Shown here: positions 6,176 through 26,368 of the stretch, piece by piece
How positions within the stretch are numbered: position 1 is the stretch's first letter
How the letters are laid out: every line of letters begins with the position of its first letter
Virus record (IMG/VR): IMGVR_UViG_3300025879_000855
Coordinates: 1-26,368 of that record
DNA: 26,368 nt
Direction: 5' to 3' (one strand)
Origin: a virus
The notes under the pieces: generated by a model
Told to the model about the DNA's origin: nothing
The model's input: the letters and a program-made list of their open reading frames with translations, nothing else
Databases searched by the model: none
Position numbers and translations under genes: made by a program

Positions 6176-6880
6176 CTATTTTATTGCAATCGCACCAACG
6201 AATTGATGGTTTTGCCAGAACGGTTGAATATCTTGAAAACCCGCAGTCAACAATAGATTGCGCAGTTCATTCCAAGTATTCGGTTTCAACATGGATCGAA
6301 GTTCTTGCTCTTTGTCCATGATGTCTTCTGCAGTGAAGTTCTGTCTCTTGTAATCATAATGAGAAAAGGTAAGTATCTGTTGCATTCTCGCAGACTCAGC
6401 AACAGTCTTCTCTGCAAATATAAAAGCACCGCCGTCAATCAGTGCTTGGTAGATCTCTTGTACCACGGACTGTCTAGATTGACGTGGCATGAATTGTAGG
6501 GTGAATATAGATGTAACTAGACTACAGTCACATGGCCACGAGAAGTCGCGTATATCTTCAATAAAGAACTCTGCTTTCAGGTCTTCATTAGCACACTGAG
6601 TTTGACGCTCTGCAAGAGCATTCTCAAATCCCACTGCATACTCTACCCCGTAGATCCTTGCATTAGGGGATGTCGCTTTATTGTACTTCGCCATTTCATA
6701 AATGGTCTTACCAGTAGAACAACCAATATCAACAACAGACGTATTATCTTCAATGAAGTATTTGCTCATTGAAATTATGTCTTTATGTAGATCAGAATAA
6801 CCTCGTATACTCTGATCAATGTGATTGTCGAACCCTTCTTCACGATGCGCGAAAGAAAAGTCAGGTTTATGCCCGTTCAT
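6176..6880 (-). CDS. cmoA: CmoA homologue (carboxy-SAM synthase-like)
   Basis: 234 residues, alignable by eye with E. coli CmoA (247) over nearly its whole length. Shared are FDNHIDQSIRGYSDLHKDII (17-36) against FPDMIQRSVPGYSNII, the SAM loop DIGCSTG (51-57), EDIRD (108-112), FTLQF (126-130), IYQALIDGGAFIFAEK (143-158), HYDYKRQN (174-181) and a final AGF...FW...F.GAIAIK. CmoA converts SAM plus prephenate to carboxy-S-adenosylmethionine (Cx-SAM), normally used by CmoB on tRNA U34. The Cx-SAM-binding Arg199 of E. coli has no certain partner: R195 (in RSML) matches if a gap is allowed, but a gapless alignment puts Glu there. The start at 6880 (AAAGG site) overlaps the cytosine methyltransferase gene by 14 bases, so the two are coupled. 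No CmoB is visible here. Confidence 0.85.
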   Translation of the reverse strand: MNGHKPDFSFAHREEGFDNHIDQSIRGYSDLHKDIISMSKYFIEDNTSVVDIGCSTGKTIYEMAKYNKATSPNARIYGVEYAVGFENALAERQTQCANEDLKAEFFIEDIRDFSWPCDCSLVTSIFTLQFMPRQSRQSVVQEIYQALIDGGAFIFAEKTVAESARMQQILTFSHYDYKRQNFTAEDIMDKEQELRSMLKPNTWNELRNLLLTAGFQDIQPFWQNHQFVGAIAIK

Positions 6881-8015
6881 TATATACCTTTAATATGTTC
6901 TCATATACTGCTTCAGCGACAGACTTCATCAATAATGGGGGAACCATGCGACCGATACGCTCTGCCTTCTGATCCCATTTACCAGTCAACTTATAATCAT
7001 CTGGTAAAGACATTATACGTTTTAATTCACCCAATGTCAACTTTCTTGGTTCGCACCAGTGGAATACCCCCGCAGTTGTAGCACCAGATCCCATAGCAGT
7101 CAGAGTAGGTGACGGGTGATTAAGAGATGCTCGCTTCAGGTTGAAGTGGTGTTTCTTGGGGTGATAATCATATCCATGCAATACCTTCTCAGGGAAAGTC
7201 GGCATTGCAGAACCAGTGACAGACCAGTACTTTGTTTTCATAAACTTCTCGGTAAGCAAGTCAACCTCTTCTTGATCATACTCTAGACCATCGATAACAT
7301 CCTTTATAGGAACAACAGTCTTACCCGCTTCGGGAAAATAGTTAGGTAGATTCATGAAGTTGATGCCAACTACATCTGCTACGTCTTGACGTACCCCAAT
7401 AAAAATTACACGAGAACGAGTTTGGGATACCCCATAGTAACGAGAGTCTAATACTTCTGCGTGTACCTCATACCCAATCTTCGTAAAGGTGTTGTTGATC
7501 TTATTGAAATACTGCTTGGCCTCACCAATAGTTAGACCCTTGACATTCTCTGCAACAATAACCTTTGGACGAATAACATCTGCGACACGAAGAAACTCAA
7601 AGAACAGATCTTCAATGTTTTCAACCATCTTGCCATCAGAGTACTTCTTGGTTTGACCCCACCCATCCGAGTGAGTGTTACCTTTAGTTTGTGCTAATTT
7701 GCCCGACACAGAGAATGCCGAGCATGGAGGTGACCCGTCTAGGATATCCAACTCTCCAGACTTGAGTCCCGAAATTTCTAGGAACTCTTCTCCACTCAAC
7801 TCTTTGATGTCGTCGGGGATGATTGGAGTGTCTGGATAATTCTCAGCGTAGGTGTTACGCGCCTCTTCTACAAACTCATTAATACAGAGGATTTTACCAC
7901 CAGCGAGACGGTATCCAGTAGACGAGCCACCCCCACCTGCAAAGGTAGAAATGACATTAAACTTATTTTGATTTGACGCATCTAGTACGTCAGATATTGT
8001 ATATGGGGTATACAT
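6867..8015 (-). CDS. C5-cytosine DNA methyltransferase with Arg in motif X; candidate DNA carboxymethyltransferase
   Basis: 382 residues with the C5-MTase motifs in order: I STFAGGGGSSTGY (23-35); IV DGSPPCSAFS with nucleophile C98; VI AENV (155-158); VIII QTRSRVIFIG (198-207); a target-recognition region of about 210-320; IX around RKLTLGELKRIMSLP; and X ERIGRMVPPLLM (352-363). Motif X is normally 'GN': here Asn is replaced by Arg356 (codon CGC, bases 6950-6948, two changes from any Asn codon). The equivalent Asn in M.HhaI (N304) and M.MpeI (N374) lies at the SAM pocket, and M.MpeI N374K is known to accept carboxy-SAM. With the CmoA homologue overlapping downstream, I infer transfer of a carboxymethyl group to cytosine. 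An ordinary m5C enzyme remains possible. The start has a good ribosome site (AGGTGAAG) and a consensus promoter. Confidence 0.93.
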   Translation of the reverse strand: MYTPYTISDVLDASNQNKFNVISTFAGGGGSSTGYRLAGGKILCINEFVEEARNTYAENYPDTPIIPDDIKELSGEEFLEISGLKSGELDILDGSPPCSAFSVSGKLAQTKGNTHSDGWGQTKKYSDGKMVENIEDLFFEFLRVADVIRPKVIVAENVKGLTIGEAKQYFNKINNTFTKIGYEVHAEVLDSRYYGVSQTRSRVIFIGVRQDVADVVGINFMNLPNYFPEAGKTVVPIKDVIDGLEYDQEEVDLLTEKFMKTKYWSVTGSAMPTFPEKVLHGYDYHPKKHHFNLKRASLNHPSPTLTAMGSGATTAGVFHWCEPRKLTLGELKRIMSLPDDYKLTGKWDQKAERIGRMVPPLLMKSVAEAVYENILKVYNERA

Positions 8016-11648: not shown

Positions 11649-12059
11649 TCACTTGTTTCCGATATTGTACTTTGGACAAAGCTCCCACTGATCCTTATCT
11701 TTGTATCCGATAATTTTGATCTGGCGCATAGGTGCACAGTCTTTTGCAACCTCTTTATTTTGAATCTCCACAAGACCCCAGTCCTGCAGAAGAGTCGCAA
11801 TGGTGTTGCGTCTTTGCACATCGCTCTCTTCTAGATTAGACTTCTTACCATCTAACATAAAGAGTTCTTTAAAATGTACTATGAAGTATCGACCTTGCTT
11901 ATGTAGGATATGACACGATTGGTATAACTTATTATCTCTTCGAGATGCAATACCAATCCGAGTTAAAGTTTCCTTGACTTTTAAAAAATCATCAGGTTCG
12001 GCCAGAGTGACTTCCAACATCATCCCCGAGTTCCATTCTACTAAATTATTTTCTTCCAC
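11649..12059 (-). CDS. regA: RegA translational repressor
   Basis: 136 residues. The run FLKVKETLTRIGIASR, then LYQSCHILHKQGRYFIVHFKELF, RRNTIATLLQDWGLVEI and CPKYNIGNK match T4 RegA (122 residues) over the full length. The N-terminus is extended by about 12 residues. RegA binds early mRNAs at initiation regions and represses translation, including those of the clamp and clamp-loader genes in T4. Position between 62 and 43 is as in T4, although 43 is displaced by several kilobases here. Its ATG overlaps the gp62 stop. Confidence 0.97.
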   Translation of the reverse strand: MEENNLVEWNSGMMLEVTLAEPDDFLKVKETLTRIGIASRRDNKLYQSCHILHKQGRYFIVHFKELFMLDGKKSNLEESDVQRRNTIATLLQDWGLVEIQNKEVAKDCAPMRQIKIIGYKDKDQWELCPKYNIGNK

Positions 12060-12441
12060 CTTTATACACCTTGTCTCTAATTCTTGTTATTTGGTCAGAA
12101 GAGAGTAAGGAGAGTACTTGACGTGCTTTGTCATTGCTATATCCATAATACTCTTTTACCGCTTCAATGTCATTTTCTATTTCGGGTTTCGCCCATTTAG
12201 AGAACCGCTTACGTGTTCTAACTATATTTAGTAAAAAATGATATTGTAACTTTTCGTCAAGGTGGTGATAACGATTCATCTCATTTGCCAACAGCACCGT
12301 GTCGTTGAAGTACGACAGACTACGGTTGACAACGAAGGGAACATAACCCTTCTCGTTACCTTGGAAAATGTCATTTTTGGTGACGTTTATTGTTTGTAAA
12401 AAATCAAACGGTGATACGGTCTTCGATTTTACACCAACCAT
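12046..12441 (-). CDS. 62: Clamp-loader small subunit (T4 gp62)
   Basis: 131 residues from the ATG at 12441 (AAGGA site 8 bases upstream). Longer in-frame starts up to 12501 exist, but they lie deeper inside the upstream gene. The body, SPFDFLQTINVTKNDIF, PFVVNRSLSYFNDTVLLANE and FSKWAK followed by EAVKEYYGYS, matches the marine T4-like type of gp62, which differs much from T4 itself (187 residues). With gp44 it forms the loader that opens the gp45 ring. The first 38 bases overlap the sulfotransferase gene; the last bases overlap regA. Confidence 0.88.
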   Translation of the reverse strand: MVGVKSKTVSPFDFLQTINVTKNDIFQGNEKGYVPFVVNRSLSYFNDTVLLANEMNRYHHLDEKLQYHFLLNIVRTRKRFSKWAKPEIENDIEAVKEYYGYSNDKARQVLSLLSSDQITRIRDKVYKGGRK

Positions 12442-13105
12442 TTTTAAAATCCTTCGCATACAAATCATATAGTTGTTGCATCTGTTCTTCGCAAATTGCA
12501 TCGGTGTACAATTTCAGATGCGTCTTGTTTTCGTGCAATTTGATCAAGGTGTTGCTTGCATCAACTTCACATGCTTCTTGGATAAACCCAAGTGCTTGAT
12601 CTAACTCACTAATATGCACGACCATATCATAGTCTTCGGGTACACCCATGTACCAAGATTGTGAATAGAAGTGATTGTTTTTGACTGTACCATTATATAC
12701 TGATTTGATCACCTCGTCAAGAAGTTCTGATATTTCAGGTAAATCATTTGCGCGGCCATGTTTAATAAAATAAGCACGTTCTTGCAAAATAAACTTACAC
12801 GCAGACTTAAATCGATCTATTGGATCGCGTCTTACAGCAATTCTAAACGATCCTTTTCTAAATGGTAAATCACCGAGATAACCGTGTTGACGTACATTAT
12901 TATATCGATCAACATAGTTACCATAGATTAAACCAGTTTTAGAGTCACCCTCACGTCCTTTGACTATGCGGTATGCTTTCTTGAGACTGCTCATCCCATT
13001 CTTAGGACATATTCGCACATCAATATTATTGGGGAAATACAGAACATTATCTACAGGCGATATCTCATGAGATACCGTGTTTCTTAAATCAGGTGTTTGC
13101 TTCAT
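12404..13105 (-). CDS. Sulfotransferase family protein
   Basis: 233 residues. ICPKNGMSSLKKAYR (32-46) fits the 5'-phosphosulfate loop (P-K-x-G-x-S-S), and RIAVRRDPIDRFKSA (88-102) fits the 3'-phosphate-binding 'VRDPxxRxxS' segment of PAPS-dependent sulfotransferases (Sulfotransfer_2 type). Such enzymes transfer sulfate to carbohydrates or, more rarely, proteins. A sulfotransferase between dCMP deaminase and gp62 is foreign to the T4 order; overlap with both neighbours shows it has been absorbed into the operon. Target is unknown, with phage or host glycans most likely given the sugar genes nearby. Confidence 0.75.
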   Translation of the reverse strand: MKQTPDLRNTVSHEISPVDNVLYFPNNIDVRICPKNGMSSLKKAYRIVKGREGDSKTGLIYGNYVDRYNNVRQHGYLGDLPFRKGSFRIAVRRDPIDRFKSACKFILQERAYFIKHGRANDLPEISELLDEVIKSVYNGTVKNNHFYSQSWYMGVPEDYDMVVHISELDQALGFIQEACEVDASNTLIKLHENKTHLKLYTDAICEEQMQQLYDLYAKDFKNGWCKIEDRITV

Positions 13106-22671: not shown

Positions 22672-23301
22672 TCAAGGTGTCATAATTTGTTTAACACAGT
22701 CTTCCCAATAGTCATAGTTGAAACCCATTGTAAAACTAAGGGTAATTCTTTTACAGTTGGTTTTAGCACAGTGCCAAATTATTTTATCCGGTTCATCTAA
22801 AGAACCAAAGTATCCGGCCTTGCATGTCCAACCTTTTTTATCATGCATCCTGATGACATCATCAGTCTTAGGATCTATATATTCAAAGTAACCATCACCT
22901 GTCTCTGACCAAGTGAAAATCAAATTATATGCGGATGCATTTGCGTTATTGTGCCATGAGATAAAGCCACCGGCCGGATAAAACTGACTAAGGGCGCTGC
23001 ACTGCAAACCAAGTTCAAGTCTCATTCGCATATCTAGAGCAAAAAAATCTAACTCATAATCTATTTTTTGATCGCCGGAATAGTGATGGGGTTTCAATCC
23101 ATATGAGTGCGCGGACTCTGGACTACCATCATGATCGTCTCTGATAGATTCTAGATAGTCCTTACTAGTATACCACCCATCTACGTCAATGTCACCCATT
23201 TTTTCATTTGTTTTGGTGACATCGTACTTGACATTATATGTGGACAGACAATCGTGCAATATATTCTGCACGTTTCTGTTCTCAATTGGAACTGATTGCA
23301 T
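22672..23301 (-). CDS. 2OG-Fe(II) oxygenase-like protein
   Basis: 209 residues. FYPAGGFISWHNNANASAYN gives the first ligand region and DKIIWHCAKTNCKRITLSFT the distal His and the Arg that would bind 2-oxoglutarate. The usual HxD reads HNN here (Asn in place of the acid), so iron binding may be altered or supported by another residue. The type is known beside structural and uvsY genes in marine T4-like phages; the target is not known. The ATG overlaps the tail tube stop (TAATG), so it may be made together with a late gene. Confidence 0.65.
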   Translation of the reverse strand: MQSVPIENRNVQNILHDCLSTYNVKYDVTKTNEKMGDIDVDGWYTSKDYLESIRDDHDGSPESAHSYGLKPHHYSGDQKIDYELDFFALDMRMRLELGLQCSALSQFYPAGGFISWHNNANASAYNLIFTWSETGDGYFEYIDPKTDDVIRMHDKKGWTCKAGYFGSLDEPDKIIWHCAKTNCKRITLSFTMGFNYDYWEDCVKQIMTP

Positions 23302-23798
23302 TACGATATCTCGAAGTGACTAAACCTAAATGATGCTGAGTATGTTGGGTATGTTAAATCACCTGTGTTAGATGCAAGTTGTATGCTACCTAAATTTGTT
23401 GGTACACAATCATAATACTTAATCTGAACATTCTTGTTGTTATGAGAAGACAGGATTAGTATCGCGATGTCTGCATATGTTGATGTGCGACCATCGCCAG
23501 GCAGTGCGTTTACTTGACCATCATTGACAATACGCTCTAACCACGCCTGCATTTCCTTGTAGGACTCCATATCCTCATCCAACAACACATCTATGCTCAT
23601 CTCACCGTAGTTGATCTTGTCACCCGCTAAAGGAACAGACGTTACGCGCTTCACCGGAAGTTCTGTAGGGTTGACAGACGCGCCTGGATGTGTTATTGCT
23701 TGTGCAAAGTATTCTAGGTTGCTATAGTTATCACGATTAATGATTATCTTGAACCCTGTAGGTTGCAAGTAATTCTTGTTCGATGTTAAAGTACTCAT
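23301..23798 (-). CDS. 19: Tail tube protein (T4 gp19)
   Basis: 165 residues (T4 163) from the ATG at 23798, where GGAG stands at the right distance; an in-frame TTG at 23810 is less likely. PTGFKIIINR, LEYFAQAITHPGASVNP, PLAGDKINYGEMSIDVLLDE and the ending YPTYSASFRFSHFEIS match the T4 gp19 family. It stacks as hexameric rings to form the inner tube of a contractile tail. A T4-type late promoter precedes it. Confidence 0.93.
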   Translation of the reverse strand: MSTLTSNKNYLQPTGFKIIINRDNYSNLEYFAQAITHPGASVNPTELPVKRVTSVPLAGDKINYGEMSIDVLLDEDMESYKEMQAWLERIVNDGQVNALPGDGRTSTYADIAILILSSHNNKNVQIKYYDCVPTNLGSIQLASNTGDLTYPTYSASFRFSHFEIS

Positions 23799-23822
23799 GC
23801 TGATCTCCAAAAGTTCTGCATA

Positions 23823-23844: not shown

Positions 23845-24762
23845 CTATCTGCAGAATTCCACATCATCCTCATAAACATAGTTAACATCTAGGTCTCGCT
23901 GTTGGTCTAACTCGTATGCGAGTGCTCTTCCTGCCAACACCTCGTTTATCCAAGTGACGGCATCTGAGTTCTCATCACCTAGTGGCAATCCATCATACTT
24001 GAACTTTGCGTTTGAAAAGAAAGGTACTCGATCTCGTGTGTAAGACATGATAGTGCCCTTCCTGCATGATTCGAAATTACCAGCATTGCCTTCTATGCAA
24101 TAACCTTTATTGGCATCCTCGGCAGTTTCAAAGTCATGCTCCAAACCAAAGTTGTGTCCAAGTTCGTGCGCAAGTGTTTCTGGGCCACAACGAGTCATTG
24201 ACTTGATAGAACCACCATAGTAGTTGTATCTTCCCATGTTTGCAATACCACAAAGGCTATCACCGTATTTGTCAGTCATCAATCCAACCGTCATATCAGC
24301 GCCGCTGTCGGGATAACCATAAGTGGGTGCCCTTGGAGTCATGTCATAAAATGCTGACCTAACACTGTTCGGCATGTCTGGATCAATCTCAATAGACTCA
24401 ATGATAAATCTTACCGGAACACCACTGTTACGAAAGATTTGTTCTGCTTCCCGCACCCAATTAATCGCCTTTCTCCACGGTTCATTTTCATCAAATTCTG
24501 GATGTAATACAAGTGCAATGCTGAGAGGTACTTCGCCTGCAATAGAGTAAGTACCATTTTCATTTTCTCTTACATCGGTGTTGGTGCTAGGGTTGCTCCA
24601 GAACAGATCACCTTTCATAGTACGCAAAGTATACCAATGACCCTTACCCCCTATTTCGCCAGGCGGTGCATCCAAAGGAATCATTCCTGCTTCATCAGCA
24701 AACACCATACCCATAAAACCTAAAAGTGAACATACTGCCGCAAACCTTAATAAATTAAGCAT
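23845..24762 (-). CDS. Secreted zinc metalloprotease, reprolysin/metzincin-like
   Basis: 305 residues. Signal peptide MLNLLRFAAVCSLLGFMGMVFA. The catalytic zinc motif HELGHNFGLEH (199-209, HExxHxxGxxH) and a following Met-turn IMSY (238-241) define a metzincin, closest by eye to reprolysin (M12B)-like phage and bacterial proteins. Cysteines at 171, 192, 222 and 233 could form disulphides, consistent with export. It lies between the tail tube gene and the capsid-side HNH gene. It could trim host envelope proteins or act at lysis or release, but no target can be read. A 7/8 late promoter match precedes it. Confidence 0.85.
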   Translation of the reverse strand: MLNLLRFAAVCSLLGFMGMVFADEAGMIPLDAPPGEIGGKGHWYTLRTMKGDLFWSNPSTNTDVRENENGTYSIAGEVPLSIALVLHPEFDENEPWRKAINWVREAEQIFRNSGVPVRFIIESIEIDPDMPNSVRSAFYDMTPRAPTYGYPDSGADMTVGLMTDKYGDSLCGIANMGRYNYYGGSIKSMTRCGPETLAHELGHNFGLEHDFETAEDANKGYCIEGNAGNFESCRKGTIMSYTRDRVPFFSNAKFKYDGLPLGDENSDAVTWINEVLAGRALAYELDQQRDLDVNYVYEDDVEFCR

Positions 24763-24787: not shown

Positions 24788-24795
24788 TATTTATT
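24788..24795 (-). promoter_or_regulatory. Possible late promoter of the metalloprotease gene
   Basis: Minus-strand AATAAATA, 7 of 8 bases of the T4 late consensus, about 26 bases before the ATG at 24762. An exact TATAAATA also occurs at 24871-24864 on this strand, but it lies in the HNH coding start. Confidence 0.4.
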
Positions 24796-24802
24796 ATAAA
24801 TA
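24795..24802 (+). promoter_or_regulatory. T4-type late promoter of the HNH endonuclease gene
   Basis: Plus-strand TATAAATA, an exact late consensus, about 60 bases before the ATG at 24861. Confidence 0.65.
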
Positions 24803-24860
24803 GATGTGTATCGCGGGATTGCCGTCCCCATACACACTAACACTATACAGGAGTGCCAGC

Positions 24861-25397
24861 ATGACTATTTATACACATAAACATCACATCATTCCACGCC
24901 ATATGGGTGGATCAGATGACCCTTCAAATCTAGTAGAACTATCAATAGAAGACCACGCACAGGCGCACCTCGACCTATACGAGAAGTACGGGTACGAACA
25001 AGACCTTGTTGCGCACCGTATGTTACTAGGTCAAATAGATAGAGCAGAAGCAATCAAAGTCCTACAGAAAGCACCTAAGTCAGAACGTTGGAAACAAACT
25101 ATGTCCAAACGTATGACTGGCGAAGACAATCCGCAGTACGGTAAACCTACCTCTGACAAACAGAAAGAGGCCGTAGGTAAATCTGCAAAGGAAAGATTCA
25201 CTGGTGTACCTAAGAACTACAAGGTCATCAATCCTGTAATGTACGGTAAAGACAATCCTCGGTCACGTGTAGTGATTGCGGATGGTGTGCAATACGAAAC
25301 TTTACGTTCTGCGTGTGATGCACACGGACTCAAGAATCATAACGCAGGTGCATATAGAATCAAGTCGGATAAGTGGGATTGGAGATATGAAGACTAA
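24861..25397 (+). CDS. HNH homing-type endonuclease with NUMOD motifs
   Basis: 178 residues from the ATG at 24861 (AGGAG site); a longer frame to 24804 has no ribosome site. HKHHIIPRHMGGSDDPSNLV and then EDHAQAHLDLY form the HNH metal-finger. GEDNPQYGK and YGKDNPRSR are NUMOD3-like repeats, and YETLRSACDAHGL...KWDWRY is a NUMOD1-like DNA-binding end, the layout of free-standing phage homing endonucleases. It is on the strand opposite to the capsid gene and near its 3' end, the usual position for a homing insert. It has its own late promoter. Confidence 0.9.
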   Translation: MTIYTHKHHIIPRHMGGSDDPSNLVELSIEDHAQAHLDLYEKYGYEQDLVAHRMLLGQIDRAEAIKVLQKAPKSERWKQTMSKRMTGEDNPQYGKPTSDKQKEAVGKSAKERFTGVPKNYKVINPVMYGKDNPRSRVVIADGVQYETLRSACDAHGLKNHNAGAYRIKSDKWDWRYED

Positions 25398-25536
25398 CCA
25401 AGAATATAAAGATGAAGCATATGAACACGCAAGACTTCTTATCGAGCGTGAGTATGTCACGGATGTTGATCTAGAAACCCTCGCAAAGAAAATCTACAGA
25501 CAAAAAAAGGGGGACTCGAAAGTCCCCCCAAAATGA
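25387..25536 (+). CDS. 49-residue protein overlapping the HNH gene
   Basis: Starts at the ATG in GGAGATATG, whose GGAG serves as ribosome site; the first 11 bases overlap the HNH stop. MKTNQEYKDEAYEHARLLIE is helical and charged, and LETLAKKIYRQKK follows. I recognise no family; it could be a small partner or a repressor of the endonuclease. Its last codons lie in the hairpin that terminates the opposing capsid gene, so the protein end (KGDSKVPPK) is constrained by it. Confidence 0.6.
   Translation: MKTNQEYKDEAYEHARLLIEREYVTDVDLETLAKKIYRQKKGDSKVPPK
25502..25528 (-). terminator. Intrinsic terminator of the major capsid gene
   Basis: On the minus strand GGGGGACT pairs perfectly with AGTCCCCC around a TTCG tetraloop, followed by seven T. 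It lies about 57 bases after the capsid stop and inside the opposing 49-codon gene. Confidence 0.88.
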
Positions 25537-25584: not shown

Positions 25585-26368
25585 TTATGCAAGGATATTG
25601 TCAACCCTGAAGATTCTGTAATATTGATTGCTCTTAGCAGCAGCAAGACCGTCAGCAGGAGTTGCACCCACAAATGGGTTAGACGCCATACCGTAGCGAG
25701 TCTTGAATCCAATTTTTGGTTGGAAAGTATCTTCACCAACTGCTTTAACCATCTGTAGAGGTACGTATGGGCAGTAGAATACACCTGCGTCATATGCGTT
25801 AGTACCTTTGTAACCTACAGTGATGTAGTCAGCAGATGCATAAGGATCGATGTATACTTTAACACGACCGTTCAAAGTACCAGCAAATGTGTTACCAGTG
25901 TCATCTACTTGCAAGTTAGTGCTCATTGCAGGTGAGTAGTCAAGCATACCAGATGCAGCAAGTGCAGTAGCAACGTCAGAAGAACAGATAACTACGTTAC
26001 CCTTACCACGACGAGTTTCTTTTGCAATTACGTTACACTCACGGTCAATCTGTACAACAAGACCCTTGAACTTCTCTGCAGACCAACGGCCGTCAGCATC
26101 AGTAGTCAAGTTGAAGATACCTTGAATAGCAACGTTAGACTGAAGACAACCAGTCTTTGCTTGCGAGTTGATAGTACGGATAACTTCACGGTTGATTTCC
26201 GCAAGGATTTCAGTACTCAAGATGTTCGCAAGTTCAGTCTCAGCGTCAAGACCGTGGATTGCTTTCAGGTCTTGAGCAAGTTCAAGCGAGTATTCCGCTT
26301 TCAATGCACGAGACTTCGCAGTCACAGTTGCTTTCTCGATGGTGAAACCCATTTCTGCGAAAGGAGCA
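25585..26368 (-). CDS. 23: Major capsid protein (T4 gp23), C-terminal part
   Basis: The reading frame enters from the right edge, so the N-terminus is missing; about 261 residues are visible. FAEMGFTIEKATVTAKSRAL, EYSLELAQDLKAIHGLDAE, TEILAEINREV, RVKVYIDPYASADYITVGYK and FQPKIGFKTRYGMASNPF are the well-known conserved stretches of T4 gp23. It forms the hexameric capsid lattice. There is no gp24 gene after it; instead an opposing HNH gene follows. A strong terminator ends the unit. Confidence 0.97.
   Translation of the reverse strand, partial: APFAEMGFTIEKATVTAKSRALKAEYSLELAQDLKAIHGLDAETELANILSTEILAEINREVIRTINSQAKTGCLQSNVAIQGIFNLTTDADGRWSAEKFKGLVVQIDRECNVIAKETRRGKGNVVICSSDVATALAASGMLDYSPAMSTNLQVDDTGNTFAGTLNGRVKVYIDPYASADYITVGYKGTNAYDAGVFYCPYVPLQMVKAVGEDTFQPKIGFKTRYGMASNPFVGATPADGLAAAKSNQYYRIFRVDNILA

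Follow-up and report, generated by a model that had tools for sequence, protein, structure and literature searches.

A predicted exported reprolysin-like metzincin in the gp23-gp3 gap of a T4-like phage

The window analysed here, a virus contig of 26,368 bases (IMG/VR record IMGVR_UViG_3300025879_000855), encodes a metzincin protein, P0001, which represents a new subfamily among T4-like phages, marked by an N-terminal segment of its own (Table 1). According to our preferred reading, to which we give about an even chance, P0001 would be a late, Sec-exported protease encoded by an accessory gene of the hypervariable gp23-gp3 slot, which cuts the host envelope and most likely helps lysis. Most of the phage enzymes known to attack the envelope of the host are lysins, spanins or depolymerases. 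Exported phage metzincins are already known from two quite different settings, the Listeria and the Maribacter phages. No description of a metzincin from a T4-like phage, including the lipoprotein family reported below, was found in searches of the open-access literature.

Table 1. Positions of the metzincin gene, its motifs and its surroundings in the window (a slash marks the predicted end of the signal peptide).
Feature	Positions	Strand	Remarks
gp3-type tail completion / tail tube protein	23301..23810	-	phrog_45 E 8e-29; cyanophage gp3 matches
Predicted exported metzincin protease gene	23845..24762	-	305 aa, ATG start
Met-turn TIMSY, residues 237-241	24040..24054	-	M239 invariant, 35 rows
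Zinc site HELGHNFGLEH, residues 199-209	24136..24168	-	H/E/H/H invariant, 35 rows
Predicted Sec signal peptide, residues 1-22, VFA/DEAG	24697..24762	-	read from translation
AATAAATA, near-match to T4 late promoter	24788..24795	-	33 b upstream of metzincin start
TATAAATA, late-promoter-like octamer	24795..24802	+	upstream of HNH gene
TATAAATA, late-promoter-like octamer	24866..24873	-	111 b upstream of metzincin start, within HNH gene
HNH homing-type endonuclease	24862..25397	+	PF01844 23.0 bits (cut-off 21.4); phrog_655 E 4e-20
Terminator-like hairpin after gp23	25508..25529	-	9 pairs, 6 GC, then TTTTTT
gp23 major capsid gene, cut by window end	25585..26368	-	PF07068 E 2e-114; whole in L002

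Motifs, family assignment and predicted fold of P0001

The initial annotation had described a phage-encoded exported metzincin with a complete signal peptide, an HExxHxxGxxH motif and a Met-turn. This description is supported by the exact open reading frame, by matches to the Pfam Reprolysin families and by a metzincin fold model, and the three sequence elements were all located in the translation. The N-terminus, read by eye as MLNLLRFAAVCSLLGFMGMVFA/DEAG, corresponds to a signal peptide of the SPI type with valine at position -3 and alanine at position -1; it has no lipobox because its sole cysteine, C11, comes after a valine. Residues 2-20 form a helix in the AlphaFold model. In an alignment of 35 rows, H199, E200, G202, H203, G206, H209 and M239 are invariant. 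Judged from its sequence, P0001 is probably a catalytically active zinc endopeptidase that would be exported by the Sec pathway.

P0001 scores above the Pfam cut-offs of Reprolysin_5 (E 9.4e-11, 42.7 bits, cut-off 27), Reprolysin_4 (E 9.8e-10, 38.9 bits, cut-off 22), Reprolysin_3 (E 1.2e-9, 39.2 bits, cut-off 22.4) and Reprolysin_2 (27.9 bits, cut-off 27), which by score places the predicted protein in the reprolysin-like M12B group; by zinc site, Met-turn and modelled fold it is assigned to the metzincin superfamily. NCBIfam ranks Mep72 first (E 3.3e-9) and CpaA next, with P0001 far under both cut-offs (35.9 vs 645 bits for the Mep72 model NF052434; 30.7 vs 750 bits for the CpaA model NF033511).

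The AlphaFold2 model of P0001, built on the 35 alignment rows, has a mean pLDDT of 74; its core, residues 78-290, is confident, and the N-terminal linker and the C-terminal tail are poor. A Foldseek search of the PDB with this model yielded 113 matches with E <= 0.001, and the best 50 of the 113 are all of the metzincin fold. Among the matches listed, CpaA (PDB 6o38), a protease that Acinetobacter secretes, comes first with E 1.8e-13, followed by ADAM33 with 1.1e-8. The VIA comparison gave CpaA a Z of 23.8 (rmsd 4.1, 219 residues aligned, 19% identity) and the next entry a Z of 16.4, residues 18-285 of the model being matched to the catalytic domain at the C-terminus of CpaA. In the viral library the top structural match (E 1.4e-5) is A0A8E4XY18 from Maribacter phage Colly_1, annotated as Matrixin family. 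The single P0001 sequence finds weak metzincin matches in the PDB (best E 0.061). A chance motif or a pseudogene was ruled out by the Pfam scores, the kept orthologues, the invariant residues and the metzincin fold model.

P0001 and CpaA share the cysteine pair CG.A....C before the zinc helix. However, CpaA, with about 580 amino acids, carries additional domains at its N-terminus and has a chaperone as partner (the structure 6o38 shows a chaperone-substrate complex), whereas P0001 corresponds to the catalytic module alone plus a phage-specific N-terminal segment. Mep72, a metzincin from the Gram-negative Pseudomonas aeruginosa and the best NCBIfam profile, is likewise secreted, but it is described with two carbohydrate-binding domains and a partner, BamI (PMC4334185). 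P0001 ends in VEFCR, and the distance of C304 to the zinc was examined in the AlphaFold model, in which the tail around this residue is of low confidence. The ADAM proteases and the snake-venom adamalysins possess a prodomain carrying an N-terminal cysteine switch. P0001 has no cysteine from the signal peptide to C171 and therefore lacks a switch of this adamalysin type.

Genomic setting and orthologues in the gp23-gp3 gap

The T4-like setting is supported by gp23, gp3 and UvsY, found by profile, and by a gene order as in C48C1, the nearest named phage by gp23 (78% identity over the window part). The order is gp23, HNH, metzincin, gp3, a 209-aa protein, UvsY and UvsW. The location between structural genes, as initially annotated, was confirmed, gp23 and gp3 flanking the metzincin gene on its own strand; the HNH gene, which separates gp23 from the metzincin gene, had been missing from that annotation. 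Its ATG is preceded by AGGAG, and the longest open reading frame begins at 24804. A further contig (L002) overlaps the window, is identical across the metzincin gene and adds the complete gp23 as well as portal, protease and scaffold genes, which were named from the gene order in C48C1. Elsewhere in the window, an open reading frame at 6867-8015 has an SPPCSAFS motif and by eye resembles a DNA cytosine methyltransferase; PADLOC found no system.

In C48C1 only 88 bases lie between gp23 and gp3, and its whole genome gave no match to Reprolysin_5 or to the phage lipoprotein-metzincin profile. Both searches were also negative for DLP_6, likewise among the nearest named phages, in which an "exonuclease" gene occupies the gap. 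The metzincin is therefore dispensable. A survey covered 80 viral loci whose gp23 has an identity of 71% or more, and in 59 of them the gap could be scored. It measures less than 200 bases in 30 loci, 200-599 bases in 11 and at least 600 bases in 18, so that it represents an insertion hotspot in which genes come and go. A metzincin (L124) and an HNH gene like that of the window (L174) were each present in one of the 59 scored gaps. Since the slot takes HNH and other unrelated genes, position tells little about function. The HNH gene at L174:7470-7868 closely resembles that of the window and lies in a gap without a metzincin. Small exported proteins are also encoded in the gap, with or without a metzincin (L119:7497-7979, L122:3956-4399 and L068:1941-2384); those of L119 and L122 have a signal peptide followed by ETVINYDDGST and gave no Pfam, NCBIfam or PHROG match, and the L068 reading frame groups by blastp with a similar protein.

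True orthologues of 328 amino acids were found in three more contigs (L124/L200, which is one contig, L199 and L201), being 43-44% identical to P0001 over the full length and 46% over aligned positions. L200 and L201 are one residue apart and L199 is 95% identical to both, so that they amount to about two alleles. They are located in the same gp23-gp3 gap without an HNH gene and run in the reverse orientation to gp23 and gp3, so that the gene cannot be regarded simply as a member of the structural operon. The zinc ligands, loss of which in close relatives had been named by the initial annotation as evidence against its proposal, are intact in L199, L200 and L201, as are the catalytic glutamate, the Met-turn and the cysteines C171, C192, C222, C233 and C304. 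The pattern EAGMIPLD..PG..GGKGHWY.LRTMKG following the signal peptide is also kept. The residue following the third zinc histidine is serine in the orthologues and aspartate in the window, and L199 has its own, cysteine-free signal peptide. Between the window and the orthologues pN is 0.39 and pS about 0.78, with synonymous sites saturated; dN is 0.026 and dS 0.069 between L199 and L200. These substitution rates point to a maintained function of the metzincin.

The T4 late promoter is given as TATAAAT (PMC3037559). The octamer TATAAATA occurs four times on both strands of the window (1.5 expected) and three times in the 1,774-base gap (0.11 expected), a number reached in none of 3000 shuffles, with one copy each upstream of gp3, HNH and metzincin. 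In L199 and L201 it also precedes the metzincin reading frame, at a distance of about 36 b, and in L069, a carrier of the lipoprotein family described below, at about 34 b. Of seven more loci examined in that family, two (L085 and L097) carry the shorter ATAAATA no more than 30 b upstream, and L072, L077, L082, L094 and L103 have no late-promoter-like motif within the 90 b tested. Moreover, the window gene at 19176-19772 matches in position a C48C1 gene annotated as late sigma transcription factor. The clustered octamers and the gp23 and gp3 neighbours bear out the initial assignment to a late block; late expression would be a fair assumption for the window gene but not a general one for the lipoprotein family.

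A second family of phage metzincins

A scan seeded with distant relatives resulted in 40 viral loci encoding 35 distinct proteins (the L068-L106 set), which are 19-23% identical to P0001 in the 35-row alignment. HExxHxxGxxH is present in all 40 loci; a strict regular expression found the Met-turn in 31 of the 40, and its methionine is invariant in an alignment of 21 selected rows. A lipobox-like motif was identified in 34 of the 35 members with the start codon inside the contig, and of the 39 with the stop inside it 38 end in C-x-[FY], L012 being the exception to both. P0001 shares with these lipoproteins the catalytic domain and the T4-like group, yet it differs in its SPI-type signal peptide without a lipobox and in the lack of the C-x-[FY] end, and it belongs to a separate clade. 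The metzincin of L015/L102 has about 160 extra residues before its CLF end, which are missing in the 94%-identical L016/L099.

A search of the records of 29 of the 40 loci found gp23 (PF07068) in 12, small fragments included, and in all five records above 130 kb. Several carriers keep the gene order of the window, with homologues of gp44, 12046-12501, 11649-12059 and polB. The lipoprotein gene occupies the gp23-gp3 gap in L068-L070, as in the window; L079, L081, L082, L089, L090, L092 and L095 have it between gp44 and the homologue of 12046-12501, and other carriers have it elsewhere. Where checked, each carrier record has one metzincin gene, extra matches being, by position, pieces of the same gene. 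Taken together, the orthologues and the 40 lipoprotein loci show that exported metzincins recur as accessory genes within this T4-like group.

A first tree contained 55 rows: the window, 31 phage rows (the 40 loci minus duplicates and short ones), one plasmid row and 22 cellular rows, from 49 loci of which 26 were extracted and four dropped. In a second tree 12 rows were removed, and two orthologues and six cellular rows were added. The lipoprotein family and the P0001 type form separate clades, each with a support of 100/99; a grouping of both under a shared phage ancestor has a support of 79/38 with long branches. No close bacterial relative was found in the scan of genome contigs, in which the best of the 49 loci reached 44% over 81 catalytic-core residues; P0001 matched four of 369 genomes of one class and three of 198 of one phylum, all partially. 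The genomes searched gave only partial or catalytic-core matches and hence no sign of a recent capture from a bacterium with a close living relative. A tblastn search with P0001 and two lipoprotein metzincins found no relatives among 50,697 phage records, and phrog_18894 indicates that some phage members exist. A different metzincin, encoded at L005:5863-7059 (minus strand), starts with a twin-arginine-like sequence (SRRSYLQ) and contains acidic repeats resembling EF-hands; the acidic proteins of L005 suggest, as a guess, a virus of an archaeal halophile.

Proposed role and alternative explanations

In the mechanism we favour, a T4-like phage would express the stand-alone reprolysin-like metzincin late in infection, and the host Sec pathway would export it into the periplasm, a compartment assumed because the nearest named relatives infect Gram-negative bacteria. 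There it would cut envelope proteins of the infected cell itself, and the weakened envelope would allow lysis by holin, endolysin and spanin to free virions better, as with Mtz and Tim. The envelope target and the lysis benefit are proposed by analogy only. In Listeria, Mtz with its cleaved partner Tim is reported to sensitise cells to phage lysis; together the two raised phage lysis and the release of virions about 5-fold, and Tim with catalytically inactive Mtz gave no lysis (PMC8235301). As described there, Mtz is likewise an SPI-exported metzincin encoded by an accessory gene on phage elements with a role in phage lysis. However, it requires a TIMP-like lipoprotein partner, acts in a Gram-positive host and is located in a prophage lysis region, and it is likened to P0001 by role, not by homology. 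No TIMP-like lipoprotein is encoded beside the metzincin, its neighbours being HNH, gp23 and gp3 in the window and gp23 and gp3 in L199-L201; the analogy is therefore partial. The lipoboxes of the sister family indicate a phage metzincin placed in the host envelope. Of the three roles proposed by the initial annotation, our best reading ranks help in lysis as likeliest, a block of re-adsorption or superinfection as the main rival and virion decoration as least supported.

According to this main rival, which we consider possible but clearly the less probable, the exported protease trims the receptor of the phage or another outer-membrane protein, thereby blocking superinfection and keeping virions off debris. 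Late expression would suit such a protection of the progeny, and the predicted lipoproteins of the sister family resemble Llp of T5, described as a small phage lipoprotein that binds FhuA and works on the outer membrane from its periplasmic side (PMC9586334). Similarly, the lipoprotein metallopeptidase of Maribacter phage Molly was proposed to aid in reaching cells or in the escape of progeny from debris or matrix (PMC8776804). The zinc metallopeptidase of Molly and Colly_1 is, like P0001, a phage-encoded exported metzincin, but it is described with 199 amino acids and a lipoprotein domain (PMC8776804), comes from another phage group and has 15% identity. However, the known exclusion lipoproteins are small binders rather than enzymes, and the window protein has no lipid anchor.

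A wider and rather unlikely reading is that envelope proteolysis is a regular late stage of infection by the T4-like phages of this group, that at least two diverged lineages of exported metzincins, one soluble in the periplasm and one lipid-anchored, enter and leave their genomes by exchange, and that a C-terminal cysteine may hold the enzyme latent until lysis. C304, or the cysteine of C-x-[FY]-stop in the lipoproteins, may then work as a cysteine switch located at the opposite end of the protein. Compact lipoprotein metzincins have five cysteines beyond the lipid cysteine, but others have even numbers, so that the argument from an odd cysteine count is weak.

It is doubtful that P0001 is an O-glycoprotease like CpaA, which would recognise glycosylated envelope or surface-layer proteins and clear a glycoprotein coat for release or spread. 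In structure, both phage models match CpaA best and by a wide margin, the lipoprotein-metzincin model giving the same CpaA-first order (VIA Z 21.7 vs 14.7), and CpaA is the best PDB match of the profile of 35 relatives (E 1.4e-13, adamalysins after it). Against this, specificity does not follow from a common fold, P0001 has no carbohydrate-binding domains and falls far short of the NCBIfam CpaA cut-off, and CpaA is absent from the best PDB matches of a profile made from the lipoproteins only. The glycan specificity reported for CpaA (PMC6299215) may thus serve as a lead for substrates of P0001 and not as a result.

A virion-associated protease on capsid or tail that is used at entry, the decoration considered by the initial annotation, is very unlikely: the gene does lie between gp23 and gp3, but the protein has a Sec signal peptide, the slot holds unrelated genes, and the lipid anchor predicted for 34 of the 35 complete N-termini of the sister family fits the host membrane rather than the capsid. 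Hardly more credible is a passenger gene, a recently captured bacterial protease without phage function riding with the adjoining HNH gene in an insertion hotspot, as the orthologues in L199 and L201 lack HNH, L174 has HNH without a metzincin, the protein is full length with all catalytic residues kept at 46% identity, and no close cellular relative was found; a single mobile unit of metzincin and HNH was ruled out, each occurring in the gap alone (L199-L201 vs L174).

A recurrent exported protease would add a step in which envelope proteins are cut to the late infection of T4-like phages, and this step may influence when lysis occurs, how progeny are released or whether superinfection is excluded. 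Moreover, these small, self-contained metzincins of bacterial type would be material for biochemistry, and the gp23-gp3 slot offers a practical hunting ground for further accessory genes.
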